DNA from: an uncultured Prevotellaceae bacterium
Lineage (GTDB): Bacteria > Bacteroidota > Bacteroidia > Bacteroidales > Bacteroidaceae
Length of the DNA stretch: 61,359 nt
NCBI GenBank assembly: GCA_900313615.1
Contig: OMRP01000020.1
Coordinates: forward strand, 1-61,359
Direction of reading: 5' to 3'
A program made the translations under genes and the position numbers. The notes under the pieces are model-generated. The model searched no databases. It saw only the letters and a list, made by a program, of their open reading frames with translations, and was not told where the DNA came from. Within the stretch, counting starts at the first letter, position 1; each line of letters begins with the position of its first letter. Of the stretch, positions 26,338-46,423 are shown piece by piece.

Positions 26338-26396
26338 CAAGATATTTACTTTGGAGGATTTTGGTGAGGGTATAAAATTGATTATTGACTTACAAG

Positions 26397-27128
26397 ATGA
26401 AATATACATTAGTAACGGGCGGATCGAGAGGTATAGGTCGCGCCATTTGTGTGGAGTTGGCCAAGATGGGCCAACCTGTGATTATCAATTACCAGTCGAA
26501 TGTAGCCGCTGCAGAAGAGACGAAAGCTCTCATTGAATCAGCCGGCGGCACAGCCGAATTATTACCTTTCAATGTAGCCAACGAAGAAGAGGTGGACCAA
26601 GCGTTGAACACTTGGGAGAGCAATCATCCAGACGACTATATCTCCGTATTGGTGAACAACGCAGGAGTGCGCCACGACAACGTGATGTTCATGATGTCGG
26701 ACGAAGAGTGGAATGATGTGTTGTGCATCACATTAAATGGTTTTTTCTTTCTTACCCGTCGTCTATTGAAACACATGATGCCCCGGAAACGTGGTGGTCG
26801 AATCATCAATATATCCTCGTTGTCGGGTGCCAAGGGCTTACCCGGTCAGGCAAATTACAGCGCCGCCAAAGCAGGACTCATAGGTGCCACGAAAGCGTTG
26901 GCCCAGGAAGTGGCTGCCCGTGGCGTGACGGTTAACGCCGTGGCCCCAGGTTTTATCGAAACAGACATGACAAAGGATCTGCCCGAGGAAGAGTTGCGCA
27001 AGACCATTCCCATGAACCGTTTTGGCAAGCCAGAGGAAGTAGCGGCAGTGGTTGCTTTCCTCGCTTCTGAGCAAGCAGGTTATATTACAGGTGAAGTGAT
27101 TCACATCAACGGAGGTCTATATACGTAA
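26397..27128 (+). CDS. fabG: 3-oxoacyl-ACP reductase of the polyene cluster
   Basis: The 243-residue short-chain dehydrogenase starts at the ATG at 26397 (an upstream TTG is less likely). It has TGGSRGIGRA for NADPH binding, NNAG, the catalytic Ser in NISSLSG, and YSAAK (Tyr154, Lys158), and ends GGLYT. It reduces the beta-keto group after each condensation; in E. coli aryl polyene synthesis the equivalent is ApeQ. As first gene of the cluster, 48 bases before a ketosynthase, it is likely dedicated to the polyene and not the housekeeping FabG. Confidence 0.92.
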   Translation: MKYTLVTGGSRGIGRAICVELAKMGQPVIINYQSNVAAAEETKALIESAGGTAELLPFNVANEEEVDQALNTWESNHPDDYISVLVNNAGVRHDNVMFMMSDEEWNDVLCITLNGFFFLTRRLLKHMMPRKRGGRIINISSLSGAKGLPGQANYSAAKAGLIGATKALAQEVAARGVTVNAVAPGFIETDMTKDLPEEELRKTIPMNRFGKPEEVAAVVAFLASEQAGYITGEVIHINGGLYT

Positions 27129-27176: not shown

Positions 27177-28400
27177 ATGGCAAGAAGAGTAGTGATAACA
27201 GGAATGGGTATTTGGTCCTGCCTAGGAACAGATATTGCGACGGTGAAAGATTCTCTCTTTCATGGAAAGTCAGGCATTGGCTTGGCTCCAGACCGTCTTC
27301 AGTATGGTTATCGTTCATGCCTGACGGGATTGGTTGCCGAGCCCCTCATCACCAAGCAGATGCTTGACCGCCACATGCGTTCAGCCATGTCGGAAGAGTC
27401 GCGTTACGCCTATATGGCCAGCCAACAAGCGTTGGCGCAAGCAGGTATTGACGACGCCTATTTACGCGGCAACGAGGTAGGCTGTATTTTTGGCAACGAC
27501 TCCTCTGCAGTTTCTGTGATTGAGACTGCCAAGATTATGGAAGAGAAGCACGACAGTGCCATGCTCGGTTCAGGCATTCTTTTTCGCTCATTGAATTCCA
27601 CCGTGACGATGAACCTGAGCAGCATTTTCCATTTGCGCGGTGTAAACTTTACGGTGAGTGCCGCCTGTTCCAGTGGAAGTCACTCTATCGGTTTGGCGTA
27701 TACCTTCATCAAACATGGCATGCAGGATATGGTCTTATGCGGTGGGGCCCAAGAGGTGAACCATCTCGCCATGTCTTCTTTCGACGCATTGCTGGCTTTC
27801 AGCGTACGTATGGACGCCCCCATGGTAGCCAGTCGTCCATTCGACCGTGACCGCGATGGTCTTGTCCCTAGTGGTGGAGCCGCAGCGTTGGTGTTGGAAG
27901 ATTATGAACATGCCGTGAAGCGAGGAGTTCCCATCCTTGCAGAAATCATTGGCTATGGCTTTTCGAGCAATGGACAAGGCATGTCGCAGCCAGATGACGA
28001 GGGCAGTTACGTTGCCATGAGTCGGGCTGTAAAAGAAGCCGGCATCACCCTTGACGACATTGACTATGTGAACGCCCATGCCACATCAACCATTCAAGGT
28101 GACAAATACGAGGCCATAGCCCTTGGCCGCCTATTTCATGGTCAGCGTGCCTTGATCAGTTCAACGAAGTCGATGACTGGTCATGAATGTTGGATGTCAG
28201 GAGCCAGCGAGGTCGTGTACTCCACGATTATGATGCACAACCATTTTGTGGCACCGAATATTAACTTTGAAAACCCTGACGAATATTCAGAGAAACTGAA
28301 AATCACCGCCAAGACTGTTGAGACCGATGTGAATTGTGTGTTAAGCAACTCGTTCGGTTTCGGTGGAACCAATTCGGCTTTGATAATTAAAAAATTATAA
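27177..28400 (+). CDS. Beta-ketoacyl-ACP synthase (first ketosynthase)
   Basis: The 407-residue KASI/II-type ketosynthase has the complete triad: Cys164 in SAACSSGSHSI, His in NAHATSTIQGD and His in MTGHECWMSGA, and ends GFGGTNSALIIKK. It resembles the FabB/ApeR branch in length and GDKYE wording. It would condense an acyl starter with malonyl-ACP in the cytoplasm. Unlike the other two ketosynthases in the cluster it has no C-terminal extension. It starts 48 bases after fabG and is followed by an AT-rich gap of 139 bases. Confidence 0.9.
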   Translation: MARRVVITGMGIWSCLGTDIATVKDSLFHGKSGIGLAPDRLQYGYRSCLTGLVAEPLITKQMLDRHMRSAMSEESRYAYMASQQALAQAGIDDAYLRGNEVGCIFGNDSSAVSVIETAKIMEEKHDSAMLGSGILFRSLNSTVTMNLSSIFHLRGVNFTVSAACSSGSHSIGLAYTFIKHGMQDMVLCGGAQEVNHLAMSSFDALLAFSVRMDAPMVASRPFDRDRDGLVPSGGAAALVLEDYEHAVKRGVPILAEIIGYGFSSNGQGMSQPDDEGSYVAMSRAVKEAGITLDDIDYVNAHATSTIQGDKYEAIALGRLFHGQRALISSTKSMTGHECWMSGASEVVYSTIMMHNHFVAPNINFENPDEYSEKLKITAKTVETDVNCVLSNSFGFGGTNSALIIKKL

Positions 28401-28539: not shown

Positions 28540-29055
28540 ATGAAGAAAACGATATTAGCGACCTGTATGCTGCTGGTAAGCCTCTGTGCCATTGCCAGCA
28601 ACGGAATTGTCATTACAGAAGGAACAACATCGTTTCTCCGTGAATACGAGACAGCCAATGTAGTGTTCAACTGGAACGAAGCCACTTGGGACATCACCCT
28701 TCCCCTATCCGAACATTGGGGCAGCAACAGCGACAGTATGAAAGCCGCAGGCAAGCGTTATTTCGTGGATGGATTTAACGACACGAGTAAGAAACTACGT
28801 ATCAACGACAACAGTGGCTGTAAATACCGTATTGAAGTACATATCACCAACCTATCCTATTTCACTAGTCCACTACCCTTTTTAACCGGATACAGGCATC
28901 GGGTGAGCGGCAGCATTACGGTTGTGGCCAATGCCACGAATGAAACCGTCTGCGTTATATTTGTCGATTCATTCGTTGGGGGTCGAGACACGGACTTCAA
29001 CGACAGTTATACCGAGTGTATGGAAGACCTCGGCAAAAAATTGGCAAGCCTATAG
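28540..29055 (+). CDS. Secreted protein of unknown function in the polyene cluster
   Basis: The 171-residue product has a signal peptide (MKKTILATCMLLVSLCAIAS). The rest is rich in beta-strand-like alternation with the segments FVDGFNDTSKKLRI, YRIEVHITNLSYF, VSGSITVVANATNETV and a C-terminal DFNDSYTECMEDLGKKLA. This pattern (signal, then a sheet with a terminal helix) is unlike an enzyme I know. It lies between a ketosynthase and a methyltransferase on the same strand, so it may help carry or anchor the product in the periplasm. Function unknown. Confidence 0.75.
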   Translation: MKKTILATCMLLVSLCAIASNGIVITEGTTSFLREYETANVVFNWNEATWDITLPLSEHWGSNSDSMKAAGKRYFVDGFNDTSKKLRINDNSGCKYRIEVHITNLSYFTSPLPFLTGYRHRVSGSITVVANATNETVCVIFVDSFVGGRDTDFNDSYTECMEDLGKKLASL

Positions 29056-30270: not shown

Positions 30271-30516
30271 ATGACAAGAGCAGAGATTGAGGACAAGGTG
30301 AAAGCCTTCCTCGTTGACGATTTGGAAATTGACGAAGAAAAAATTTTCGCCGATGCCCGTCTAAAGGAAGATATGGGTATCGACAGTCTTGACTTTGTTG
30401 ATATTGTGGTCATCGTAGACAAATATTTCGGTTTTAAGATTAAGCCCGACGAAATGGCTGAGGTGAATACCTTCAGCCAGTTTGTAGATTATATTGAAAG
30501 GAAGATTGGCGAGTGA
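30271..30516 (+). CDS. Acyl carrier protein 1
   Basis: The 81-residue acidic protein has the phosphopantetheine site GIDSLDFVD (Ser about 40) and the usual four-helix pattern with a C-terminal basic tail IERKIGE. It would carry the growing chain or the starter. It is one of three carrier proteins in this cluster; E. coli aryl polyene clusters have two. Full length. Confidence 0.93.
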   Translation: MTRAEIEDKVKAFLVDDLEIDEEKIFADARLKEDMGIDSLDFVDIVVIVDKYFGFKIKPDEMAEVNTFSQFVDYIERKIGE

Positions 30517-30559: not shown

Positions 30560-31456
30560 ATGACCGAGAAGAAAGCAGAAAAGGAATGGGCAGGAACAAC
30601 CTATGGCAACCGATGGATGCATCGTTGGTTAATTCGGCTGCTGAAGGTGACGGACGTGAGGATAATATATCTTTTCACGTCAGTTTTTGTCATACCGTTT
30701 TGTTTACTTTTCAATCGCAGTGGTAAGATTATCTATCATTTTTTTCGTAAGAGGATGGGATATCCTCTACTTCCATCATTGTGGAAGGCTTACCGCAACC
30801 ACTGTCTATTTGGCCAGGTCGTGATTGACCGTTTTGCCATGTATGCCGGGAAGCATTTTAATATTGACATAGAAGGTTATGAACATTTCCAATTTTTAGC
30901 CAAGCAAGAGAGCAGTTTCATCCAGTTGAGTTCTCATGTGGGCAACTATGAGATAGCCGGCTATACCCTTGTCGCTGAGGACAAGCCTTTCAACGCCCTA
31001 GTCTTCGGCGAAGAAAAAGCCATTGTGATGGAACAGCGCAACGAGATGTTCACCAATACCAATATCAAGATGATTGCCGTGAAAAACGACATGAGTCATC
31101 TATTCGAGATAGACCATGCTCTAAGTGAAGGCGAGACAGTGAGCATGCCCGCCGACCGAATTTGGGGTTCACCCAAACACTTGGTCATTTCCTTTTTGGG
31201 CAAGAATGCCCGTTTTCCCGCCGGCCCTTTCAAAGTCGCCACAGTTCGTAGCACCGATGTCTTGGCCGTAAATGTAATGAAAACCTCGACTAAGACATAC
31301 AAGATATACGTCACCCCTCTCACCTATGACAAAAGAGCCAATCGACAGGAACAAGTTCGCCAGTTGTCGATGGCGTACGTCAAGGAACTGGAAAGGATAG
31401 TAAAACTCTATCCCACACAATGGTATAACTATTTTGATTTTTGGAAAGATGAATGA
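30560..31456 (+). CDS. LpxL/HtrB-type lysophospholipid acyltransferase
   Basis: The 298-residue protein has a hydrophobic segment at about 33-52 (membrane anchor) and the acyltransferase motif SSHVGNYEIAG, i.e. HxxxxE with His126 and Glu131, followed by a substrate block (MPADRIWGSPK, FPAGPFKVA). This is the late lipid A acyltransferase family. In aryl polyene clusters an equivalent enzyme is thought to attach the polyene to a lipid. Its last eight bases overlap the start of the dehydratase gene (ATGAATGA), a sign of coupled translation. Confidence 0.85.
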   Translation: MTEKKAEKEWAGTTYGNRWMHRWLIRLLKVTDVRIIYLFTSVFVIPFCLLFNRSGKIIYHFFRKRMGYPLLPSLWKAYRNHCLFGQVVIDRFAMYAGKHFNIDIEGYEHFQFLAKQESSFIQLSSHVGNYEIAGYTLVAEDKPFNALVFGEEKAIVMEQRNEMFTNTNIKMIAVKNDMSHLFEIDHALSEGETVSMPADRIWGSPKHLVISFLGKNARFPAGPFKVATVRSTDVLAVNVMKTSTKTYKIYVTPLTYDKRANRQEQVRQLSMAYVKELERIVKLYPTQWYNYFDFWKDE

Positions 31457-31907
31457 AGACCCACGCTACCCCACCCCGGTTTTTTTGCGCACGATAGACA
31501 TCCATGAGTTGCTACCCCAACAAGAACCGTTTGTGATGATTGACCGCTTGGTGTCATTCACAATGGAACGGACTGTATCGGAGACCACCCTCCGTGCTGG
31601 CAATCTGTTCCTGGACGGCGAAACATTCAATGCCTCTGGTTTGGTGGAAAATATCGCCCAGACCTGTGCCGCCCGCATTGGTTACATCAACAAATACATC
31701 TTGAAGAAAGGTATTCAATTGGGATTCATTGCCGCCGTTCGTGACATGACCATCCACGCCAAGCCCCATGTAGGTGACACCATCGAGACAAGTATTGACA
31801 TCGTGGCCGAAGTGATGGGCATGATATTGGCCACTGGTACCGTGACCTGTGGTGGCAAAACTTTAGTGACGACCAACATCAAGATAGCTGTGAAAGAAGG
31901 AGAATGA
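31449..31907 (+). CDS. Hot-dog dehydratase-like protein 1 (Glu subunit)
   Basis: Start at the ATG at 31449, overlapping the previous stop. The 152-residue product has the FabZ-like opening IHELLPQQEPFVMIDRL and the central helix SGLVENIAQT. The catalytic Glu position is filled (Glu67), but the His that should lie 14 residues before it, in a GHFP motif, is absent (Leu53; the local sequence is NLFLDGETFNASG). It therefore cannot form a normal FabZ homodimer site. The second hot-dog protein at 37725 has the His and lacks the Glu. It probably dehydrates 3-hydroxyacyl chains only as part of a heterodimer. Confidence 0.82.
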   Translation: MNEDPRYPTPVFLRTIDIHELLPQQEPFVMIDRLVSFTMERTVSETTLRAGNLFLDGETFNASGLVENIAQTCAARIGYINKYILKKGIQLGFIAAVRDMTIHAKPHVGDTIETSIDIVAEVMGMILATGTVTCGGKTLVTTNIKIAVKEGE

Positions 31908-31911
31908 GAAA

Positions 31912-32349
31912 ATGGAACAACAAGAACTAAAAGCGACAAAGGAACTGGCCATTCGTTTCAGCGAAGTAGACTCTATGGGAGTGGCGTGGCACGGGTCGTA
32001 TGTAACTTATTTTGAAGATGCACGCGAATATTTCGGAGAACTATTCGGACTGAGTTACAATTTCTATATCGATAATGGTTATTACGCCCCTATCGTTGAC
32101 TTGAACATCCAATACAAGAAAGCCATCCGTTATGGCATGAAGCCACGAATCACCATCACCTATCATCCCACGGTAGCCGCCAAGATTGTGTTCGACTACG
32201 AGATTGTGGATGGAAGTGACGGCAGTCTCATTGCCACGGGAAGTACTGTCCAAGTATTCATGAACATGAATTATGAGTTGGTGTGGGCCAATCCTGATTT
32301 CTATCTACAATGGAAAGAGGAACACGGTGTTCTCGACATTAAAGAATAA
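31912..32349 (+). CDS. 4-hydroxybenzoyl-CoA thioesterase-family protein
   Basis: The 145-residue single hot-dog protein has the 4HBT signature VDSMGVAWHGSYVTYFEDAR, with the conserved Asp about residue 20 and His about 28, and the following YAPIVDLNIQYKKA. This is the YbgC/FadM branch. It would release the finished acyl chain from the carrier protein or clear stalled intermediates. It begins four bases after the dehydratase stop and is 27 bases before a ketosynthase, so it belongs to the same operon. Confidence 0.88.
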   Translation: MEQQELKATKELAIRFSEVDSMGVAWHGSYVTYFEDAREYFGELFGLSYNFYIDNGYYAPIVDLNIQYKKAIRYGMKPRITITYHPTVAAKIVFDYEIVDGSDGSLIATGSTVQVFMNMNYELVWANPDFYLQWKEEHGVLDIKE

Positions 32350-32376
32350 GTTTGGCACATCCATTGTATCCAAGAC

Positions 32377-34164
32377 ATGGTTTACAAAATAGCAGACAAC
32401 ATCACATCACCATTAGGAATGACGACAGCAGAGAACTATTCCGCTGTTAAGGATGGACATAGCGTTCTGCGTCATTTTGTCGGCAAGTGGGGCATCCCCG
32501 AGCCGTTTTGCGCTTCGCTGTTCAGCGATGTCCAAAACGACGCCATGCTTATCGATGGAATGACTCGTTTTGAGTCAATGGTTGTCTGTAGCATTCGACA
32601 TGCCCTGAAAGACATCACTTTCAACATAGCTGGCCCTGATGTGGTATTTCTATTAGCCACCACGAAAGCCAACGTGGAACAGTTAGGTTGTGATATGACA
32701 ACCCCCTCAGTGGTTTATCCTGGCGAGAGTGCCCTTCATATTAGTCAAGCAATAGGTATAACTACCACACCGATTGTTGTGAGTAATGCCTGTATATCCG
32801 GTCTCAGTGCCATCATCGCAGGCTGTCGATTATTGGAATTAGGACAGTATGCCCACGCTATCGTCTGCGGCGCCGACGTGTTGAATCGTTTCGTGATTTC
32901 GGGTTTCCAATCTTTGAAGGCACTGTCAGAGGACACCTGCAAGCCTTTCGATATGGAACGGTTAGGACTGAATCTAGGTGAAGCAGCCGCTACGATAGTA
33001 TTGTCCGTAGAGCCAGGCAATGAATCCCGTCCTTGGTCTATTCTTTCGGGAGCCATTCACAATGACGCTTATCATATCAGCGCCCCTTCAAAACGAGGTG
33101 ATGGTGCCTATCTTTGTCTGAAAGAAGTGCTTCAAGGCATTGACATAAATGATTTGGCTTTTGTTAATGCCCATGGCACCGCCACATTGTTCAACGACCA
33201 GATGGAATCTGTGGCTATTGAACGGGTTGGGTTGGGTGACATTCCCGTAAACGCTCTGAAAGGCTATTATGGCCATACCCTTGGAGCCGCAGGCGTTGTT
33301 GAAACCCTTTTGTGTATGCGCTCTTTGGATGACCATACGGTGTTAGGTACCAAAGGGTATGAAGAGTTGGGCGTTTCAGGCAAGATTCGCATATCTTCGA
33401 CGCATGGGACCACTGACAAGAACTGTTTTGTGAAGATGATTTCGGGTTTTGGTGGTTGCAATGCCACGTTGGTGGCTGGACTAGTGACAAGTGAAGTATT
33501 ACGATTGAGGAGTAAGGACAAAGAACCTATGCCTCTCCTTCTGAAAGAGAGAGAGAAAAAGAACATACTTTACGAGACGAAGGATGAAATATGTATCATG
33601 CCCGAGGGTGTGACACTGAATGATCAGGCGTTAACCTGTCATGGTCATGGTAAGGAGTTATTAACAAACCTTTATAAGGAGTATGTAGGCGACTATCCCA
33701 AATATTACAAAATGGATGGTCTGAGCAAGTTGGGCTTTATCGCAAGTGAACTGTTGCTGCATAGTGGACGAGGAAACAAGACCGAGACAAGTGATGACGC
33801 GGAATTTACCTTTGGACGATGTGCCATCATCTTGTTCAACCATTCATCGTCACTTTGCGCTGACAAGCATTATCTTGAATCCATTGAAGACAAAGACAAT
33901 TATTTCCCTAGTCCTTCGTTATTTGTATATACCCTGCCCAATATTGTGACAGGTGAAATAGCCATCAAGAATGGATTGCATGGAGAAACGGCGTTCTACA
34001 TTCTACCCGAACGTAACGAAACGACAATGCGTCAAGTGGTGGATGCCACATTTCTAGACCCTAGCATCGACAGTATGATTACGGGGTGGATCGATTACGA
34101 GGACGACCAGCATTTCGAGGCAGACATGAGGATGATAAGAGTAAAACGTGAAAAGCCACGATGA
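32377..34164 (+). CDS. Ketosynthase fused to a degenerate ketosynthase-like half (second ketosynthase)
   Basis: Residues 1 to about 375 form an active-looking ketosynthase: Cys139 in VSNACISGLSA, His in NAHGTATLFND and His in YYGHTLGAAGVVE. A charged linker (KEREKKN) leads to about 390-595, a second segment with the look of the N-terminal half of a ketosynthase or chain-length factor (RCAIILFNHSSSL, LFVYTLPNIVTGEIAIKNG), without Cys in the active-site position. In flexirubin and aryl polyene loci this half is usually a separate short gene. The fusion may act as a built-in chain-length partner. The stop overlaps the upstream frame of the next carrier protein gene. Confidence 0.85.
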   Translation: MVYKIADNITSPLGMTTAENYSAVKDGHSVLRHFVGKWGIPEPFCASLFSDVQNDAMLIDGMTRFESMVVCSIRHALKDITFNIAGPDVVFLLATTKANVEQLGCDMTTPSVVYPGESALHISQAIGITTTPIVVSNACISGLSAIIAGCRLLELGQYAHAIVCGADVLNRFVISGFQSLKALSEDTCKPFDMERLGLNLGEAAATIVLSVEPGNESRPWSILSGAIHNDAYHISAPSKRGDGAYLCLKEVLQGIDINDLAFVNAHGTATLFNDQMESVAIERVGLGDIPVNALKGYYGHTLGAAGVVETLLCMRSLDDHTVLGTKGYEELGVSGKIRISSTHGTTDKNCFVKMISGFGGCNATLVAGLVTSEVLRLRSKDKEPMPLLLKEREKKNILYETKDEICIMPEGVTLNDQALTCHGHGKELLTNLYKEYVGDYPKYYKMDGLSKLGFIASELLLHSGRGNKTETSDDAEFTFGRCAIILFNHSSSLCADKHYLESIEDKDNYFPSPSLFVYTLPNIVTGEIAIKNGLHGETAFYILPERNETTMRQVVDATFLDPSIDSMITGWIDYEDDQHFEADMRMIRVKREKPR

Positions 34165-34232
34165 CCTGTGGCGCTAAAATACAACGAACCAAAGAAGTAC
34201 ACGGAATAATAAAATACTTAAACTCACATACA

Positions 34233-34493
34233 ATGGAAGAGTTAAAATTGGAATTGAAAGAACAGATTATCAAGGCGTTAAACCTTGAAGAGATGACACC
34301 TGACGACATCGACGAAGATGCCGCTCTTTTTGGCGACGATGGTCTAGGACTTGACTCCATCGATGCCTTGGAACTAATCGTACTGCTTGAGAAGCGTTAC
34401 GGCATCAAGCTGGCTAATCCCGCCGAAGGGAAAGCCATTTTCAAGAACGTATCGACCATAGCTGAATATGTGAGTAAGAACAGGAAACGGTGA
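34233..34493 (+). CDS. Acyl carrier protein 2
   Basis: Start at the ATG at 34233, which opens a normal 86-residue carrier protein (MEELKLELKEQI); an in-frame start further upstream would add an unrelated 24-residue tail. The phosphopantetheine site is GLDSIDALEL (Ser about 42), preceded by an acidic DIDEDAALFGDDGLG. Its stop overlaps the GTG start of the next ketosynthase by four bases (GTGA), so the pair is probably translated together and works together. Confidence 0.92.
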   Translation: MEELKLELKEQIIKALNLEEMTPDDIDEDAALFGDDGLGLDSIDALELIVLLEKRYGIKLANPAEGKAIFKNVSTIAEYVSKNRKR

Positions 34494-36271
34494 GCAATAA
34501 AATTGTGATAACGGGAGAAGGCATCGTATGCGCCATTGGCCATGACAAGGCCAGTGTGGTGGATGCGTTGCTTCATGGACGGACAGGAATCCACGCCATG
34601 AAGCACCTTGGTTCCGTGCACAAGGAGTTGCCCGTGGGTGAGGTGGACCTCAGCAATGATGAGATGCAAGCCCTGTTGGGGTTAGGACCTTCTGAGGAGG
34701 TGAGCAGAACCACCATGATGGGCATGATGGCAGTGGAGCAGGCTCTAATAGATGCAGAGATTAATGACGGGAAGGATGAAAGGGGGATAAAAAGTCAACG
34801 TATCGTGCTTGTTTCCGGCACTACCGTTGGTGGTATGGACATCACCGAGAAATATTTTGGCCATTTGAAAGTTTCCGACGAACACCTCGACACTCTTCGA
34901 CATCATGATTGTGGAAGTTGCACCCATGATATTGCCAACTATTTCGGCATTTTTGATGACTGCACTACCATTAGTACCGCATGTTCGTCGGCCGCCAATG
35001 CCATCGTTCTAGGAGCCCAACTATTACAATCGGGACAAGCTGATATTGTTGTCGCCGGTGGCACCGAAGCCCTGTCGTTATTTCATCTGAATGGATTCAA
35101 TTCATTGATGATACTTGACAAGGAACGCTGTCGTCCTTTCGATGCCACTCGTGCGGGACTTAACCTCGGCGAGGGAGCCGCATATATTGTGATGGAACGT
35201 GAGGATATGGCCCAAGAGAGGAACGCCACCATCCATGCCTATCTTGCAGGATATGGCAATGCCTGTGACGCCTTTCATCAGACAGCCTCGTCGGATAATG
35301 GCGAAGGCGCCTACCTCGCCATGCGTGAAGCCATCGAAATGGCAGGCATAACAGTAAGCACTATCGATTATGTGAATGCCCACGGCACTGGCACCCCTAA
35401 CAACGACCTATCGGAAAGCGTCGCCCTGCACCGCATTTTTGGGAATGACATGCCACCCGTATCGAGCACAAAATCATATACTGGACATACGACAAGTGCC
35501 TCTGGGAGCATAGAAGCCGTGATATGTCTATTGGCCATGCGACACCGATTTATCCCCTCGAACTTCGGTTGGCAACATGCAATGGAGGGAGGCATCCTAC
35601 CTTCGATGGGTGTTTCCAATATCGCTCTTCGTTATGTGCTATGCAATGCTTTCGGCTTCGGAGGCAACGACACCTCGTTGTTGTTCAGCGCCCAAGTCCC
35701 AATGGTTAGCCTTCCCGCCATCCATTCCAACATAGCCCTCAAAGAATTGTCCCGCGTTGAGGTAAACACAGAAGAAGACCTAAAAGAGCTAAAAACATAC
35801 GTCAGCGTATTGGAATCCCGTAGAATGGGAAAGTTGATGAAGGCTTCGTTGCTCACCTCTTTGAAAGCCCTCGACATTGCCGGCATTGAGCGCCCTGATG
35901 CCATCATTACCGCCACCGCCATGGGTTGTTTGGAGAACAGTGAGCGTTTGTTGGAGCAGATAGAAGCCGAAGGTGAGACAAGTGTCAAACCTACCTATTT
36001 CATGCAAAGCACCCACAACACATTGGGCAGCAATATCGCCATTCGCACCAAATGTCATGGTTGGAATGTAACATTTACCCATGGTAAACAGTCATTAGAT
36101 TGGGCCCTCCGTGAAGCCAAAATGCTTTTGGGCAGTGGGCGTTACAAACGAGTGCTGGTGGGCGTTCATGATGAGTCAACCCCTCTGTATCGTACTTTGC
36201 AAGACAGACTCGGTGAGAGCGAATCGCCCATTGTTTATTCCTTATCATTGATACTGACATGTGGAGAATAA
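34490..36271 (+). CDS. Ketosynthase fused to a beta-ketoacyl synthase N-terminal-like domain (third ketosynthase)
   Basis: A GTG start coupled to the carrier protein stop. Residues 1 to about 400 hold a complete ketosynthase with Cys165 (STACSSAAN), His in NAHGTGTPNND and His in TGHTTSASGS. From about 410 to 593 follows a Ketoacyl-synt_2-like domain (PF13723 as I know it): DAIITATAMGCLENSERLL, FMQSTHNTLGSNIAIR, VLVGVHDE; this is normally an independent protein in Bacteroidetes polyene loci and has no catalytic Cys. Its role may be chain-length control. The end overlaps the next gene by 13 bases. Confidence 0.87.
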   Translation: MSNKIVITGEGIVCAIGHDKASVVDALLHGRTGIHAMKHLGSVHKELPVGEVDLSNDEMQALLGLGPSEEVSRTTMMGMMAVEQALIDAEINDGKDERGIKSQRIVLVSGTTVGGMDITEKYFGHLKVSDEHLDTLRHHDCGSCTHDIANYFGIFDDCTTISTACSSAANAIVLGAQLLQSGQADIVVAGGTEALSLFHLNGFNSLMILDKERCRPFDATRAGLNLGEGAAYIVMEREDMAQERNATIHAYLAGYGNACDAFHQTASSDNGEGAYLAMREAIEMAGITVSTIDYVNAHGTGTPNNDLSESVALHRIFGNDMPPVSSTKSYTGHTTSASGSIEAVICLLAMRHRFIPSNFGWQHAMEGGILPSMGVSNIALRYVLCNAFGFGGNDTSLLFSAQVPMVSLPAIHSNIALKELSRVEVNTEEDLKELKTYVSVLESRRMGKLMKASLLTSLKALDIAGIERPDAIITATAMGCLENSERLLEQIEAEGETSVKPTYFMQSTHNTLGSNIAIRTKCHGWNVTFTHGKQSLDWALREAKMLLGSGRYKRVLVGVHDESTPLYRTLQDRLGESESPIVYSLSLILTCGE

Positions 36272-36612
36272 TACCCTTTGCCCTTGTTCAGAGCATATTG
36301 TTGGCCGCAGGCCAGGTGTTTCTGAAGTTTGCCATGGTCCGCATGGCCCCATTCGGTTGGACCAAAGAGTTTTGGGGTAGTCTGTTGCTGAATTGGCAGT
36401 TTGCAGCCTGTGGCATCAGTTTTGCAGCCGCTTCGGTCTTATGGATGTGGATGGTGAAGCAGTTTCCACTGAGCGTTGTCTATCCCATGATCAGTCTGAG
36501 TTATGTGTTTGGCATGATAGCCGCCATCGTGTTTTTCCACGAAGATGTATCAGCGATGAAATGGGTTGGTGTAGTGCTTATTATGGCAGGTTGTATATTA
36601 ATAGCAAGATAA
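36259..36612 (+). CDS. EamA/SMR-like four-helix membrane protein
   Basis: The 117-residue protein consists of four hydrophobic helices with short loops, opening MWRIIPFALVQSILLAAGQVFLKFAM and containing FPLSVVYPMISLSYVFGMIAAIVFFHEDV, the pattern of half-size drug/metabolite transporters such as SMR and ArnE/ArnF proteins. It would work as a dimer in the inner membrane. In the cluster it could flip a lipid-linked intermediate, as ArnE/F are thought to do, but that is inference. It starts inside the end of the ketosynthase gene. Confidence 0.8.
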   Translation: MWRIIPFALVQSILLAAGQVFLKFAMVRMAPFGWTKEFWGSLLLNWQFAACGISFAAASVLWMWMVKQFPLSVVYPMISLSYVFGMIAAIVFFHEDVSAMKWVGVVLIMAGCILIAR

Positions 36613-36614
36613 AC

Positions 36615-37232
36615 ATGAAAAATAAAATCATACTCTTATCGCTTTTGGTGCTGTCATTTCACAACGTGTGGAGTCAGACTGAGCGTCAGGTGAAAGCCGT
36701 CGTTGACCAAGCTTCCGCTCAGCTGAAAACCATGCAATGCGATTTTGTTCAGACAAAGCATCTGAAACTCCTCAATGACCGTATGGTGTCGAAAGGCAAG
36801 ATGTATTACCAACAACATGACAAACTACGTTGGGAATACGTGTCGCCCTATCAATATACCTTCATTATGAACGGACAACAAGTGTTGTTGAAAAACAACG
36901 GTCGCAAGGACATGATTGACGTGAATCAGAGCAAGGCCTTCAAGAGTATCGCCCAAATCATGTTGAACAGTGTGGTGGGCAAATGTCTGACTGCCGACAA
37001 AGATTTCCGCAGTAGCATTGACATCAGCGGCTCTGAATATATAGCCACATTGCAGCCTTTAAAGAAAGAGCTGAAGAGCATGTTTGAAAAAATAGTTCTC
37101 CATTTCGACAAACAACGATTGTTAGTGACCAAGGTAGAGTTGCTAGAGAAGAAAGGCGACCGCACCATTATTGAATTACGCAATATCGTGACCAATGCCA
37201 GTATACCTTCGAACACGTTCTCTGTTCATTAG
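36615..37232 (+). CDS. LolA-like outer-membrane lipoprotein carrier
   Basis: Starts at the ATG at 36615, two bases after the previous stop. The 205-residue protein has a signal peptide (MKNKIILLSLLVLSFHNVWS) and the LolA fold pattern: MQCDFVQTKHL, KGKMYYQQHDKLRWEYVSPYQY, then alternating strands to VTNASIPSNTFSV. LolA-type proteins ferry lipidated cargo across the periplasm. Together with the MMPL pump, a dedicated copy in a polyene cluster suggests transport of the lipid-like product to the outer membrane. Its end overlaps the next gene by 38 bases. Confidence 0.88.
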   Translation: MKNKIILLSLLVLSFHNVWSQTERQVKAVVDQASAQLKTMQCDFVQTKHLKLLNDRMVSKGKMYYQQHDKLRWEYVSPYQYTFIMNGQQVLLKNNGRKDMIDVNQSKAFKSIAQIMLNSVVGKCLTADKDFRSSIDISGSEYIATLQPLKKELKSMFEKIVLHFDKQRLLVTKVELLEKKGDRTIIELRNIVTNASIPSNTFSVH

Positions 37233-37632
37233 TCTACTGCTTGCTCTGTACGTCCAAGCCGTAGCCCAATCGTTGCTCCCTCCCGAGGGCGGCACTGAGC
37301 GTTATGCTGTTTCCATCGAGATGCCACGAGGATACATCAGCGGCATCAGCATCATGAAAAACGATGGCGAGCGGATGATATGCAGTGTGTTCAACGAATT
37401 TGGCGTGTCTGCCATGGATTTCACCTATGACCTCAATCGTAAGAAAGTGAAGTTGTTAAGCGTAATGTCGATGTTGGATAAATGGTATATCAGAAGAGTG
37501 CTTCGCAAGGACCTTCGCGCCCTTCTTGACCACATGAGTCGAGGTGAGACTATGTATGAAAACAAGAAACGACATGTCGTTTATCGGTTTGATACAATGA
37601 AAGCCGAAGAAAAAATAGAGGATATGGAGTGA
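37195..37632 (+). CDS. Secreted protein of unknown function (polyene cluster)
   Basis: The 145-residue product has a signal peptide (LRTRSLFISLLLALYVQAVAQ) and a small mixed domain with GGTERYAVSIEMPRGYISGI and MICSVFNEFGVSAMDFTYD, then a helical basic C-terminus. There is no lipobox. I do not recognise a named family; its position after LolA parallels small envelope proteins or lipoproteins seen in aryl polyene loci. It may be a partner of the LolA-like carrier. The start overlaps the end of the LolA gene. Confidence 0.7.
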   Translation: MPVYLRTRSLFISLLLALYVQAVAQSLLPPEGGTERYAVSIEMPRGYISGISIMKNDGERMICSVFNEFGVSAMDFTYDLNRKKVKLLSVMSMLDKWYIRRVLRKDLRALLDHMSRGETMYENKKRHVVYRFDTMKAEEKIEDME

Positions 37633-37724
37633 GGAGTTTGACATTCCATCCTTCATCTTCCATGGAGAACGAAGATGGTTTGAAAAAGGGATACAAGATA
37701 ACTAAGAAAAGGAAAAAATATAAT

Positions 37725-38099
37725 ATGATACTACGAGACGATTTATACATACTGGACAAAAAGACACAAGCAGGTGACAGTTGGCAATGCCAGGTCACGC
37801 TGAACCCAGCTTGTTCCATCTATCAAGCCCATTTCCCCGGTGAACCCATCACACCTGGCGCCTGCCTATTGCAGATAGCAAAAGAGTTATTGGGAGACAT
37901 CCTACATCATCCATTGGAGATAGTATATATCAAGGATGTGAAGTTCACCTCCGTAATTAGACCCGAAGAAACGCCCAACGTCACCTATTGTTTCAGCCAT
38001 ATCGAAGAGGCAGGAGACAATGAGGTGAAAGCCAAGATTATGGTGGAGCACGAAAGCCATCCATTGTGCAGCATCGCCTTCACCTGCAAGAAATGTTGA
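37725..38099 (+). CDS. Hot-dog dehydratase-like protein 2 (His subunit)
   Basis: Start chosen at the ATG at 37725 (MILRDDLYIL), which gives a compact 124-residue hot-dog; upstream in-frame starts add a lysine-rich tail with no match to the family. It has the FabA/FabZ block AHFPGEPITPGACLLQ: the catalytic His is present (His36), but the residue 14 positions on, which is Glu in FabZ and Asp in FabA, is Gln50. This is the mirror image of dehydratase-like protein 1. A joint active site in a heterodimer is the simplest reading. Confidence 0.82.
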   Translation: MILRDDLYILDKKTQAGDSWQCQVTLNPACSIYQAHFPGEPITPGACLLQIAKELLGDILHHPLEIVYIKDVKFTSVIRPEETPNVTYCFSHIEEAGDNEVKAKIMVEHESHPLCSIAFTCKKC

Positions 38100-38109
38100 C
38101 ACTATTGTC

Positions 38110-39594
38110 ATGACCGACCCACGAAAGACCCTCAACGAACGCCACATCTGCGTTGTCATCCCCACCTACAACAATTGTGGGACGATAGTTCATGTGGTGG
38201 AGGAGACGAAGTTGTATTGCGACAACATCATCGTGGTTAACGACGGTAGTACTGATGACACAGCATCCGTTCTATCAAACATTGATGCCATCACCGTCAT
38301 TAGTTATCCAAAGAACCGCGGCAAAGGCTATGCTTTGAAACAAGGGTTCAGGAAAGCCCTGTCCATGGGCTATTCTTATGCCATCACTTTAGATGGCGAT
38401 GGACAGCACTACCCCAAAGACATTATTGAGTTCCTTCATGCCAACCAAGAGCATCCAGGCGCTCTTATTATTGGCAATAGAAACCTACATGGCGTGGAGC
38501 GTTCGAAAGGCAGTTCATTTGCCAACCGCTTTTCCAATTTCTGGTTTTTCGTCCAGACTGGCAAACGGTTGGGAGACACCCAAAGTGGCTACCGCCTGTA
38601 CCCATTGAAAAAGTTACATGGCTTGTCGCTTCTGACCTCAAAATACGAAGCAGAGTTGGAGCTATTGGTTTTCCCTTCATGGCACGGTGTGGAGTTGAAA
38701 GAGATACCTATCGACGTGTATTATCCTCCCAAAGAAGAACGAGTCAGCCATTTCCGCCCTGGTAAGGATTTCACCCGCATCAGTATCTTGAACACCATTT
38801 TGTGTGTGTTGGCTGTGGTTTACGGACTCCCTCTCCGTCTGTTCCGTTTTCTTGCCAAATGGGGCCGCACACTTTATTCGTTGTTGTTGTTCGTCGTGCT
38901 CATGTTGTTCATCATTACCCCTTTTGTATGGGTGTATACGAAGTTTGGCAAGATGACGGAGAAGAAACGTGAGACCCTCCATCGAATTATTTACAACATC
39001 TCTCGTTTTTTCATGCTGAAACATGGTATTCCCGGAACCCATTTTACCTACCATGTAGCCGAGGGTGTTGACTTCAACAAGCCCAAAGTGATTATCTGTA
39101 ATCACCAGTCCCATCTGGACCTCATGTGCCAGTTGATTTTCACCCCCAACATGATATTCCTAACTAACGACTGGGTATGGAAAAATCCCTTCTATGGACT
39201 CTTGATTAGGAATGCCGAATACTTCCCCGTTGCCAATGGTATCGATGCTTTGTTGCCCAAGTTACGATCATTGGTGGAGCGAGGTTATAGCATCGCTCTT
39301 TTCCCTGAGGGCACCCGTTCGAAGGATTTACGCATTGGTCGTTTCCACAAAGGAGCCTTTTATATTGCCGAGCAACTGGGAGTGGACATATTGCCCATGT
39401 GCCTATATGGCACAGGACGCGTTTTGCGCAAGGGAACCCACCATCTTAACAAAGGTCCCATACATATTGACGTGCAAGCCCCTATCACGGGCCAAACATT
39501 GCATGAGCATGGAGAACTTCGACAGCAAGCCTCATGGATGCGCAAAGAATACAAGGAGTGGTATGAGAAACTGGCAAACAAGTTTGAAGTATGA
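38110..39594 (+). CDS. Bifunctional GT2 glycosyltransferase / PlsC-type acyltransferase
   Basis: Residues about 12-240 form a GT2 domain of the dolichyl-phosphate mannose synthase type: VVIPTYNN, VVNDGSTDDT, nucleotide-metal DGDGQ (95-99) and DTQSGYRLYPL. Two membrane helices lie at about 225-275. Residues about 300-494 are a PlsC acyltransferase with NHQSHLD (His332, Asp337) and FPEGTRSKD near 405. In E. coli aryl polyene clusters related glycosyltransferase and acyltransferase genes are separate. It may build the sugar-lipid anchor of the polyene at the inner membrane. The last four bases overlap the next start. Confidence 0.88.
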   Translation: MTDPRKTLNERHICVVIPTYNNCGTIVHVVEETKLYCDNIIVVNDGSTDDTASVLSNIDAITVISYPKNRGKGYALKQGFRKALSMGYSYAITLDGDGQHYPKDIIEFLHANQEHPGALIIGNRNLHGVERSKGSSFANRFSNFWFFVQTGKRLGDTQSGYRLYPLKKLHGLSLLTSKYEAELELLVFPSWHGVELKEIPIDVYYPPKEERVSHFRPGKDFTRISILNTILCVLAVVYGLPLRLFRFLAKWGRTLYSLLLFVVLMLFIITPFVWVYTKFGKMTEKKRETLHRIIYNISRFFMLKHGIPGTHFTYHVAEGVDFNKPKVIICNHQSHLDLMCQLIFTPNMIFLTNDWVWKNPFYGLLIRNAEYFPVANGIDALLPKLRSLVERGYSIALFPEGTRSKDLRIGRFHKGAFYIAEQLGVDILPMCLYGTGRVLRKGTHHLNKGPIHIDVQAPITGQTLHEHGELRQQASWMRKEYKEWYEKLANKFEV

Positions 39595-41892: not shown

Positions 41893-44763
41893 ATGACAGC
41901 ATTTGTGACGAAAACTTATGACTATTTACGGTCGCACCGGACCTTGCGCCGGTGCAGTTTTGTCGTAGTCACTCTCCTACTTATTGGATTGTTTATCGGT
42001 CAGCGTTACCAAGAAGACATCACCGATTTTCTCCCATTAGGAGCACAGCACCGCAAAGCCATGTCCATCTATCAGGAGATATCCGGTGCCAATCGCTTGT
42101 TTGTGCTCTTTCAATCAAAAGACAGCACAGAGTTGCCACCCGACAGTTTGGTGTCAGCCATGGAGACCTATCAAGACATCTTGTCGTCATCAGATACCGA
42201 AGGCGAGACTGCCGGTCTTTTCACTCAAGTGGATTATGACCAATTAAGTGAGACTGCCGATTTCGTGTACCGTAACATCCCTTATTTTCTGACTGACGCC
42301 GACTACAAACGCATGGACAGTCTGCTCAGTCAAGAGCATTATATCACCGAGCAATTACATGCCGACAAACAAATGCTGATGTTTCCCGTTTCAGGGCTAT
42401 TCAGCGACAATATGCAGCGCGACCCCCTGAACCTGTTCACACCCGTGGTATCAACATTGGAACAGAGAGCCAGTGGAATGAACTATGAAGTCCACGATGG
42501 ATACATCTTCAGTCCCGACATGCGTCGCTCACTGATGATGTTATCATCGCCTTACGGTTCGAGTGAGACCGAGCATAATGCCCATTTGGTGCATTTGCTT
42601 GAGTCAGTCGCCGATTCCACCACCTTATCTCACAGCGGTTTGTCCATTCACATTACTGGTGGTCCCGCCATCGCTGTGGGCAATGCCCGTCAGATTAGAC
42701 AAGACAGTCTGTTGAGCGTATCGTTGGCCGTCTTGCTCATCGTCGGACTGCTATACTATTCTCTGCGCAGCGTGAGGAATCTGTTGCTTATCGTGCTGTC
42801 GATAAGTTGGGGTTGGCTTTTCGCCATGGGCTTGTTATCCGTGGTTCACGACAACGTGTCGATGATTGTCATCGGCATCTCTTCGATTATCCTCGGCATA
42901 GCCTTCAACTATCCCCTCCACCTGATAGCCCATATGCAACACACCACTACGGTGCGCTCAGCGCTGAAGGAGATAGCCCCCCCCCTGATAGTGGGAAATA
43001 TTACCACGGTAGGAGCATTTCTAGCCCTTGTCCCCTTGTCATCGCAAGCTCTCCGCGACTTAGGCTTATTCAGTTCGTTTCTGCTCATTGGCACCATATT
43101 GTTTGTCCTCATCTACCTACCCCATGCCGCCAAGGCACGACAAGGACACAGCACCCCCGCCATCATCAGTAAAATAGGACTGTTCGAACTCGAGAACAAA
43201 CGATGGCTCGTTGTTGTTGTGGCTGTCCTAACCCTCGTGTTCGGTTATTTCAGTTTAGGAACCACTTTTGACGTGAACCTCAGCCACATCAACTACATGA
43301 CTGAAGAGCAACGAGCCGACATGGACTATATGCAACAATCAATGAGCAGCACGAACGGCGAGAAGACCCTTTACGTGGTATATGAAGGAAAGACAATGGA
43401 CGAAGCCCTTGACCGCTGCCAGTCTAACCACAGCAAGGCAGATTCGCTATTGAAAATCGGAGCGGTGTCGGGCATTAGGAGTAGTTTCCCCCTCCTTTGC
43501 ACGAAGAAAGAACAGGAACGACGTTTGGCACAATGGTCACAATTCCTTTCCAAGCACCAAGATGCCTTTGAACGCATCCTACCCTCCGAAGCCCGCCGGG
43601 CGGGTTTTGCCGATGGTTCCTTCGACGACTTTTATACTATCCTTCATTCCCATTATGAGCCACAAGACCATTCCTACTTCGCATCATTCAGCGCCACCGC
43701 GTTAGCCGGCACAGTCAATATCGACAGTATTGGGGGAGTCTATAGCGTAGTCGACCACCTGTACGCTGATAGCAGTCATATAGCAAGTGTAATGCAACAA
43801 TACCCCAATACGGATACCGGCGTTTACGCCTTTGACATTGGACACATGAACAGCGCGATAGCCACTACCCTATCCGACAATTTCAACTACATTGGTTGGG
43901 TCTGCGGACTGATTGTCTTTTTCTTCCTATGGTTCTCTTTGGGAAGTTTTGAACTGGCCATTCTCTCATTCCTTCCCATGGCCATCAGTTGGTTGTGGAT
44001 TATGGGCATCATGACCCTTTTAGGCATCCATTTCAACGTGGTGAATGTTATTTTAGCCACTTTCATCTTCGGTCAAGGCGATGACTACACCATTTTCATG
44101 GCCGAAGGATGCCAATATGAATACGCCTACCGCAAGAAGATGATTGCATCGTACAAAAACAGCATCATCATCTCAGCACTAATTATGTTTTTCGGTATCG
44201 GCACCTTAATCTTCGCCAAACACCCTGCCCTTCATTCTTTGGCCGAAGTGACCATCATCGGCATGTTTACCGTGGTGTTTATGGCATATCTCATTCCTCC
44301 ACTCCTATTCAAATGGTTGGTATCTAAGAACGGTACGTACCGTAAGCGTCCATTGACCATTCGTCGGCTGTTACACATCAGCAACAACGACGAGGTGTCA
44401 CTGGTGCTGGACCGATACCGTTACAAAGGCCATGAAGTCCTTGCATCAGTGAGACGACACTTGCGTCAACATGACGAATATACGTCATGGACAAAGGAAA
44501 AAGACATGAAGGAACAAGTTGTTGTAGTGAACAGTGGCTATGGCGAGTTCCCATTGCTGATGGCCCTCCACCACCCCGACAAAACATTTGTTACCTATGA
44601 ACGGGATGAGGAAAAACGTCTCTTGGCGAAATATAGCGCAGAAGGATTGGTGAACAACCTGAATGTGCTGCCTTTGGAGGAAATGGGGGCAAAAGTGTCT
44701 GTCGACTCCACAGTGATTGTGTTGGATGAGGACGGAGGAGTTCTTAAGTTTTTGAGTTCTTGA
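41893..44763 (+). CDS. MMPL/RND-type exporter with a C-terminal methyltransferase-like tail
   Basis: The 956-residue protein has the MMPL layout: helix 1 near residue 25, a large periplasmic loop to about 265, five or six helices (about 275-420), a second loop and five helices (about 665-810). GIAFNYPLHLIAH and FGQGDDYTIFM are the proton-path motifs. Residues about 865-956 look like a degenerate class I methyltransferase start (VVVVNSGYGEFPLLMAL, TFVTYERDEEKRLLA). In Bacteroidetes polyene loci I recall MMPL proteins fused to both an acyltransferase and a methyltransferase; here the acyltransferase is missing and the tail ends in simple-repeat sequence. It probably exports the polyene lipid. 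Confidence 0.85.
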   Translation: MTAFVTKTYDYLRSHRTLRRCSFVVVTLLLIGLFIGQRYQEDITDFLPLGAQHRKAMSIYQEISGANRLFVLFQSKDSTELPPDSLVSAMETYQDILSSSDTEGETAGLFTQVDYDQLSETADFVYRNIPYFLTDADYKRMDSLLSQEHYITEQLHADKQMLMFPVSGLFSDNMQRDPLNLFTPVVSTLEQRASGMNYEVHDGYIFSPDMRRSLMMLSSPYGSSETEHNAHLVHLLESVADSTTLSHSGLSIHITGGPAIAVGNARQIRQDSLLSVSLAVLLIVGLLYYSLRSVRNLLLIVLSISWGWLFAMGLLSVVHDNVSMIVIGISSIILGIAFNYPLHLIAHMQHTTTVRSALKEIAPPLIVGNITTVGAFLALVPLSSQALRDLGLFSSFLLIGTILFVLIYLPHAAKARQGHSTPAIISKIGLFELENKRWLVVVVAVLTLVFGYFSLGTTFDVNLSHINYMTEEQRADMDYMQQSMSSTNGEKTLYVVYEGKTMDEALDRCQSNHSKADSLLKIGAVSGIRSSFPLLCTKKEQERRLAQWSQFLSKHQDAFERILPSEARRAGFADGSFDDFYTILHSHYEPQDHSYFASFSATALAGTVNIDSIGGVYSVVDHLYADSSHIASVMQQYPNTDTGVYAFDIGHMNSAIATTLSDNFNYIGWVCGLIVFFFLWFSLGSFELAILSFLPMAISWLWIMGIMTLLGIHFNVVNVILATFIFGQGDDYTIFMAEGCQYEYAYRKKMIASYKNSIIISALIMFFGIGTLIFAKHPALHSLAEVTIIGMFTVVFMAYLIPPLLFKWLVSKNGTYRKRPLTIRRLLHISNNDEVSLVLDRYRYKGHEVLASVRRHLRQHDEYTSWTKEKDMKEQVVVVNSGYGEFPLLMALHHPDKTFVTYERDEEKRLLAKYSAEGLVNNLNVLPLEEMGAKVSVDSTVIVLDEDGGVLKFLSS

Positions 44764-44800: not shown

Positions 44801-44828
44801 TTAGTTGGAAAGTTTGACAATAACAGAT

Positions 44829-45053
44829 ATGAAAGAAAAGATAAGAGCAATAATAGAAGAAGCCGCTCCGCTCGTTGACGCCGACAGTGATTTTCTGTTC
44901 AGCGAATTGGACTCTCTTGGAGTGACACATATCTTGATGTCACTATCAGAAGAATTCGGGATTGAGTTGGAATCCTCTGATGCCACACCGAGAAATTTGA
45001 AGAACCTCGATAGCATTGTGGCGATGGTGGAGAGGAAAATGGGAAATAAGTGA
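44829..45053 (+). CDS. Acyl carrier protein 3
   Basis: Start at the ATG at 44829; the upstream TTG is unlikely. The 74-residue protein has the phosphopantetheine site SELDSLGVTHILMSL (Ser about 29) and the expected acidic helices. It directly precedes the acyl-AMP ligase, which suggests that the ligase loads it with the starter acid. Full length. Confidence 0.88.
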   Translation: MKEKIRAIIEEAAPLVDADSDFLFSELDSLGVTHILMSLSEEFGIELESSDATPRNLKNLDSIVAMVERKMGNK

Positions 45054-45100
45054 CGATGAGTCGTTATTCGATAAAGAAATGGGATTTTCAATAGTGAGTT

Positions 45101-46423
45101 GTGAATTGTATAGAAGACTATATTAAGAAGCACGCCCGGGAACATCCTGAGAAGGTGGCTGTTGTGTGTGGTGGCATTTCCACCACTTACGGAGAATTGT
45201 GTGGTCAGATAATGGCTTGCGTAGAGGAATTGCGTAGAGAAGGTATCACCGCTGGTAATGTCATTACATTCCGCAATACCCAGAGTTTGACATTCCTTCT
45301 CACCTATTTTGCCCTGCATGAGATAGGAGCCGTCGCTCTCCCTTTGGAAAGCGATGTCAGCGACGAACAGTTACACATCATAGCCAACCATTATTCTTCG
45401 TTTACCCCACCCAAAGGCGTGGCAGACATCTTGTTCACTACGGGCACCACCGGTCGCAGCAAGGGAGTGATGGTGAGCCACACCACCATTCTTGCCGAAG
45501 CAGAGAACCTTATTTACGCCCATGGTTATACCGCCGACCATTTATTTATCATCAATGGTCCACTCAACCATATTGGCTGTCTGTCAAAAATTTATCCTGT
45601 AATGTTCACCGGCGGCACCCTTTACTTGTTAGAAAGCATGAAAGACCTAAATGCCTTCTTCCATGCCCTCGACTATCCTTGCGACAAGGTCGCCACTTTT
45701 CTTGTTCCCACGAGTGCCCGCATCCTGATACAGTTGGCCTCACAGCGGTTGAGCAGTTACCGTGACAAAATTGATTTCATAGAGACTGGCGCTGCTCCCA
45801 TGTCACACTCTGACATGCAGACACTATGCCAATTGCTCCCCCACAGTAGACTATATAACACCTATGCATCTACCGAGACCGGCATCATCAGCACCTACAA
45901 TTTCAACGATGGTCGTTGTCAGCAAGGTTGCCTTGGAAAACCAATGAAACACTCATCCTTCTTTATCACCCCCGAAGGTCAAGTAGCCTGTAGTGGCAAG
46001 ACCCTCATGGTAGGTTATGCCGGTGAAGAAGCGCTCACGCGCACTGTTCTTCGAGACGGAGTGATATATACTGCCGACAATGGTTATTTAGACGATGAAG
46101 GGATGCTGCATCTCACTGGCAGAAATGACGATGTGATTAACGTTGGCGGTTTCAAGATTTCACCTTCCGAGGTGGAAGATGTGGTACTCGGCCATCCCAG
46201 CGTGAAAGATTGCATCTGCATCGGCGTTTCTTCTCCCCTTACAGGACACGCACTGAAACTGCTATACGTGCTTCACGAAGGCAAAGAGTTGGACAAGCGT
46301 GAGATTGCCCGTTTCATCAACGCCCATTTGGAGCGATATAAGGTACCTCAGTATTATGAATGTGTTGCAGAGGTGAAGCGTACATTCAACGGCAAATTGG
46401 ACAGAAAAGCCTATCAAGAATGA
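45101..46423 (+). CDS. AMP-dependent acyl/aryl ligase (starter-activating)
   Basis: A GTG start gives 440 residues; the segment IEDYIKKHAREHPEKVAVV is the usual N-terminus. ANL-family motifs follow: TTGTTGRSKGVMVSH, YNTYASTETG, YTADNGYLDDEG, LTGRNDDVINVGGFKI and the catalytic lysine in NGKLDRKAY. It would activate a free acid as adenylate and transfer it to the carrier protein encoded 47 bases upstream; E. coli ApeH activates an aromatic starter in this way. Specificity cannot be read here. Somewhat shorter than typical ligases (about 500), with the N-terminal part compact. Confidence 0.88.
   Translation: MNCIEDYIKKHAREHPEKVAVVCGGISTTYGELCGQIMACVEELRREGITAGNVITFRNTQSLTFLLTYFALHEIGAVALPLESDVSDEQLHIIANHYSSFTPPKGVADILFTTGTTGRSKGVMVSHTTILAEAENLIYAHGYTADHLFIINGPLNHIGCLSKIYPVMFTGGTLYLLESMKDLNAFFHALDYPCDKVATFLVPTSARILIQLASQRLSSYRDKIDFIETGAAPMSHSDMQTLCQLLPHSRLYNTYASTETGIISTYNFNDGRCQQGCLGKPMKHSSFFITPEGQVACSGKTLMVGYAGEEALTRTVLRDGVIYTADNGYLDDEGMLHLTGRNDDVINVGGFKISPSEVEDVVLGHPSVKDCICIGVSSPLTGHALKLLYVLHEGKELDKREIARFINAHLERYKVPQYYECVAEVKRTFNGKLDRKAYQE

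Follow-up and report, generated by a model that had tools for sequence, protein, structure and literature searches.

A putative split dehydratase in an aryl-polyene-type gene cluster of an uncultured Prevotellaceae bacterium, with the catalytic His and Glu on two different hotdog proteins

The 61,359-nucleotide stretch of DNA analysed here (the window; contig OMRP01000020.1 of assembly GCA_900313615.1, from an uncultured Prevotellaceae bacterium) carries a gene cluster of aryl-polyene type in which two small hotdog proteins, named here P1 (31449..31907) and P2 (37725..38099), are encoded on the plus strand. Judging from their sequences, P1 and P2 are very probably the two subunits of the 3-hydroxyacyl-acyl carrier protein (ACP) dehydratase of this type II polyketide pathway, working as a heterodimer with one working site. 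This reading is carried by the catalytic residues that each protein holds or lacks, by the conservation of these residues among relatives, by profile matches that assign the two proteins to different partners in a heterocomplex of solved structure and by the cluster context. FabZ and FabA are homodimers in which each chain holds all the catalytic residues, and each site takes its His from one chain and its acid from the other chain. P1 and P2 share the fold of these enzymes and, when both subunits are combined, the same His, Glu and Gln positions, but each holds only half of the set, and neither has the His and the acid in one chain.

The open reading frame of P1, an ApeP-like subunit of FabZ type, runs from an ATG at 31449 to a stop at 31907 and encodes 152 residues (the longest possible start is a TTG at 31434). 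When its residues were read by script, Glu67 was found together with Leu53 in place of the catalytic His, just as a preliminary description of this DNA had claimed. Glu67 is followed by Gln71, forming an ExxxQ motif (codons at 31647..31661). The place of the FabZ His falls on Leu53 by counting 14 residues back from the Glu, a point where the profile alignment with ApeP has a gap; in that alignment, Phe54 lies opposite a Phe of ApeP, and neither of these two candidates (codons at 31605..31610) is His. In the predicted structure, Glu67 and Gln71 sit on helix 62-84. As the family, named-locus and phylum sets used to collect relatives share species, relatives were counted by distinct cores, which reduced 175 P1 rows to 164 and 131 P2 rows to 128, with near copies remaining; one genome, G073, was excluded from all of these counts. 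Glu67 and Gln71 were present, and His was absent at positions 53 and 54, in all 164 distinct P1 relatives, tandem copies included. Some His was detected between residues 48 and 60 in 35 of the 164, never at 53 or 54, and the P1 of the window has none in this segment, so that compensation by another His was rejected. Chance decay of one gene was also discarded, because the residue pattern is common to the relatives.

The open reading frame of P2 extends from an ATG at 37725 to a stop at 38099 (124 residues; longest possible start, a GTG at 37629). As had also been described, P2 carries His36 (codon at 37830..37832) and has Gln50 at the place of the acid. Four residues further on stands Glu54, so that the order of the motif is reversed, QxxxE in P2 (codons at 37872..37886) vs. 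ExxxQ in FabZ and P1. An alignment check for a stray His at the active site of P1 or a stray acid at that of P2 revealed none in P1, and Gln50 with Glu54 four residues beyond it in P2. His36 is kept in 128/128 distinct P2 relatives, whereas at position 50 Gln occurs in 107, an acid in nine and some other residue in 12 (no acid in 119/128). Position 54 is acidic in 126 of them (the exceptions being G037 and L124), including the nine with an acid at position 50. The predicted structure places positions 50 and 54 both on helix 45-60, with His36 closing a short helix. The structure alignments took in 42 of 80 P1 relatives and 50 of 65 P2 relatives.

The two proteins match different known partners. 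In hhalign comparisons, P1 with ApeP and P2 with ApeI gave 98.8 and 98.6, vs. 0.2 and 3.2 for the crossed comparisons; by sequence profile, P1 is an ApeP homologue and P2 an ApeI homologue, and not the reverse. This homology rests on the profile comparisons. The gathering score of the ApeP-like and ApeI-like Pfam models (PF22817 and PF22818) was reached by neither: P1 matched nothing in Pfam with an E-value of 1 or below, and P2 scored 15.2 bits against PF22818, for which the cut-off is 28.5. P2 also stayed below the score of 23 for PF07977 (17.4 bits), and both proteins were far below the 113 of the FabZ model NF000582 (29.6 bits for P1 and 15.9 bits for P2). The predicted models of P1 and P2 align with the chains of 6QSR about as well as with FabZ. 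According to its title, this Protein Data Bank entry is the structure of ApeI and ApeP of Xenorhabdus doucetiae solved as a heterocomplex.

As a control, a FabZ from a relative of the family was aligned in the same way; it showed the full His/Glu/Gln set in the P2 alignment and was out of register at the place of the His in the P1 alignment. The genome of the window has its own FabZ, fused to LpxC and encoded on another contig, with a complete His/Glu/Gln set. Therefore, an ordinary FabZ is found elsewhere in this genome, and P1 and P2 are extra, cluster-bound proteins.

The pair was compared with known systems. A passage of PMC8041823, on Acinetobacter baumannii, states a single-site heterodimer for aryl polyene clusters, and c1196/c1188 of Escherichia coli are described as the ApeI:ApeP-type dehydratase of the aryl polyene cluster in a passage of PMC8253772. 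The preliminary description was right about an ApeI/ApeP pair. Its proposal of a heterodimer with one full site is also supported as the best reading, given the match of P1 and P2 to different partners, ApeP and ApeI, of the complex in 6QSR and the passage in PMC8041823. As in ApeI:ApeP, two different hotdog subunits are found in one pigment cluster, one with the His and the other with a Glu and without the His. Nine proteobacterial ApeI and nine ApeP were examined (eight of 25 ApeP and eight of 20 ApeI plasmid matches, plus E. coli CFT073). All nine ApeP have the Glu and the following Gln, with Phe or Tyr at the place of the His as read from the alignment, and all nine ApeI have the His and an Asp. 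This Asp at the acid place, also seen in 3ESI and in chain A of 6QSR, is the difference from P2, which shares the His of the ApeI pattern and has Gln50 and Glu54 instead of its acid. Among the relatives collected, the ApeI-like half has usually lost this acid, unlike in the nine proteobacterial ApeI. A poorly resolved tree of P2, built on 125 columns with five loci duplicating others left out, gave at least seven changes between acid and non-acid at this position among the P2 relatives; the number of losses is unsure because the well-supported branches force only two.

The mycobacterial HadAB is a further case, described in part of PMC4491049, of two hotdog subunits with one active site per heterodimer, the other having been lost. 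There, both catalytic residues come from HadB, whereas P1 and P2 would supply one each; a layout of the HadAB type was rejected for the present pair, as His36 is in P2 and Glu67 in P1.

From these data we infer that P1 binds P2 in a hotdog heterodimer and that the site formed is active on 3-hydroxyacyl-ACP. Across the interface, His36 of P2 would act together with the P1 residues Glu67 (and Gln71), and after each round of elongation and ketoreduction the pair would dehydrate the 3-hydroxyacyl-ACP, leaving a double bond. At the other site of the interface, Leu53/Phe54 of P1 would face Gln50/Glu54 of P2, with no His, and this site would be dead for dehydration. A canonical site would be impossible for either protein alone, as P1-P1 would lack the His and P2-P2 the acid at its usual place.

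The distribution of the two genes was analysed in three sets. Of 151 genomes from the family, 37 contain P1 relatives and 36 contain P2 matches, one of the latter (G073) being a FabZ fusion. This was the sole apparent case of a natural P1-P2 fusion, which was rejected for that reason. Both genes were present in 35 of the 151 genomes, and P1 only in two, G106, where the contig is just 9.8 kb long, and G084. The named loci analysed, the best 80 of at least 564 confirmed, are from Bacteroidales, mostly labelled Prevotella, Prevotellaceae, Muribaculaceae or uncultured Bacteroidales. P2 was found alongside P1 in 65 of these 80, always on the same strand and downstream of P1, at about 2.9-6.4 kb in 57 loci and within about 0.5 kb in eight. 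Among 345 genomes of the phylum, a comparison of the two sets by eye showed the same 33 to have both genes, each with a score of at least 79 bits; the next matches do not exceed 45 bits (P1) and 38 bits (P2) and look FabZ-like by frame lengths. All 33 belong to the own class of the window or nearer, and none of the genomes marked as same phylum in this search gave a match at 79 bits. Residues were read in 30 of the 33 for P2 and in 30 for P1. Any two genes that belong to a common cluster would be expected to co-occur in this way, which by itself is no proof of binding.

Two adjacent P1-like matches with one P2 were counted, by eye, in 23 of the 33 pair-bearing phylum genomes, and the 22 second copies that were read all lack the His and have the Glu. 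In this arrangement, a single His subunit may have a choice between two Glu subunits. The genomes that bear it are probably Flavobacteriia, and their clusters appear flexirubin-like, as judged by eye from gene content. A passage of PMC3992019 describes FlxF and FlxS as dehydratases of the flexirubin cluster of Chitinophaga pinensis. P1 and P2 relatives occur in apparently flexirubin-like clusters of other families of the class, many of which differ from the window in their two tandem P1-like genes. Tandem P1-like genes, both lacking the His and having the Glu, beside one P2-like gene were seen at L238:3272-4180 and at other loci among L193-L218, from other families of the class. In two genomes, G050 (L240:12448-13731) and G088 (L026), the P1 relative lies inside an open reading frame of about 430-440 residues.

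Several data weigh against the heterodimer. The near-invariant Glu54 of P2 plays no part in it, and an acid is still found at position 50 in nine of the 128 distinct P2 relatives. Both in a sequence-profile search of the Protein Data Bank and in Foldseek, P1 ranks FabZ chains above chain B of 6QSR, and for P2 the 50 Foldseek matches listed do not include 6QSR. Coupling between P1 and P2 across 130 pairs was weak: where the edge strands are expected to pair, 3.7% of all blocks did as well as the best antiparallel diagonal. Finally, the P1 relative of G084 (L237) lies in a cluster-like stretch whose 20 kb, as far as read, contain no P2 relative, and so a partner other than P2 may serve some P1 relatives. 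The first residues of the neighbouring proteins at this locus resemble a ketosynthase, a carrier protein and a ketoreductase.

In one alternative, P2 would work as a homodimer in which Glu54 is the acid partner of His36 in the opposite chain, with P1 as a helper, as would fit the conservation of both residues in P2 relatives. However, the ExxxQ motif of P1 would then be left without explanation in all its 164 distinct relatives; moreover, P1 is retained with P2 in the same genomes, Glu54 stays even where position 50 is acidic, and the genome's own FabZ has a Gln at the corresponding place. We consider this homodimer quite unlikely. Even lower is the probability that P1 and P2 do pair but catalyse a reaction different from dehydration, for example a decarboxylation or the isomerisation of a double bond. 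A switch of chemistry has a precedent among hotdog relatives from type II polyketide-like clusters: according to a passage of PMC10698177, AmcE was initially assigned as the dehydratase and catalyses decarboxylation. Against this, the one site formed by P1 and P2 would hold the full FabZ set of His, Glu and Gln, and none of the other cluster proteins tested was recognised as FabZ-like, whereas a polyene pathway needs a dehydratase.

The least probable of these alternatives, with a very slight chance of being right, is that P1 is the partner of the cell's own FabZ, or of another His-bearing hotdog protein, and not of P2. It would account for G084 and for the ranking of FabZ above chain B of 6QSR in the profile search with P1, and the genome of the window does have a normal FabZ fused to LpxC; on the other hand, it is opposed by the co-occurrence of P1 with P2 and by the specificity of the P1-ApeP and P2-ApeI profile matches. 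The split heterodimer is preferred. A bolder version of it, which we regard as doubtful, is that the second interface site is not dead: Glu54 could there hold the ACP arm, set the geometry of the double bond, keep the mixed pair from giving way to homodimers or allow the ApeI-like subunit to use its own His. In the 23 genomes with tandem P1-like genes, one His subunit would then serve two Glu subunits, so that three genes would yield two dehydratases, which might differ in the chain length they handle.

As the ApeI:ApeP single-site heterodimer has been published, the principle is known and P1/P2 represent a variant of it. For this reason, the view of the pair as a clear residue-level case in Bacteroidales held in part: the single-site idea is not new, but an ApeI-like half that has lost its acid does differ from the nine proteobacterial ApeI. 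What is new, as far as the aligned proteins indicate, is a stricter split of residues than in the proteobacterial pairs, plus QxxxE in place of ExxxQ. This pattern was not found for Bacteroidota in the open-licence literature, as covered by titles and the openings of abstracts, a scope outside which Grammbitter 2019 (JACS) falls. The split dehydratase would extend from proteobacterial aryl polyene clusters to Bacteroidales and further families within the class, among proteins missed by Pfam, and the residues indicate how the catalytic set is divided between the partners. With the acid mostly gone from the ApeI-like half as well, a canonical site would be out of reach for either partner of the window's pair alone. 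Single-site catalysis could therefore be tested more cleanly here than with the proteobacterial pairs that were examined, and the near-invariant QxxxE of P2 poses a question that simple substitutions can address.

The rest of the cluster has the gene content of the aryl polyene type, with ketosynthases, a ketoreductase-like protein, carrier proteins, a thioesterase-like protein, LolA, a glycosyltransferase/acyltransferase, an MMPL protein and a ligase. Upstream of P1 are a ketoreductase-like gene (26391-27128), a ketosynthase (27177-28400) and an ACP (30271..30516). Between P1 and P2 are a thioesterase-like hotdog protein outside the pair, perhaps the ApeK counterpart (31912..32349), two ketosynthase genes with a carrier protein between them (32377..36271) and a LolA-like carrier, perhaps the ApeL counterpart (36624..37232). 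P2 is followed by a glycosyltransferase-acyltransferase fusion (38110..39594) and an MMPL-family exporter (41893..44763), perhaps the counterparts of ApeJ and ApeM, respectively, and by an ACP plus an AMP-dependent ligase (44805..46423); all of these genes are on the plus strand.

The second of the paired ketosynthases (34490-36271, 593 residues) matches PF13723 in its C-terminal part (437-591) and is possibly a fused ketosynthase and chain length factor. The C-terminal extension of the first (32377-34164) resembles, by eye, a separate open reading frame of 214 residues at L238:10270-10914. Two further cluster proteins, at 28540-29055 and 37195-37632, gave no convincing Pfam match, and the latter perhaps stands where E. 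coli has its LolB-like DUF3261 protein.

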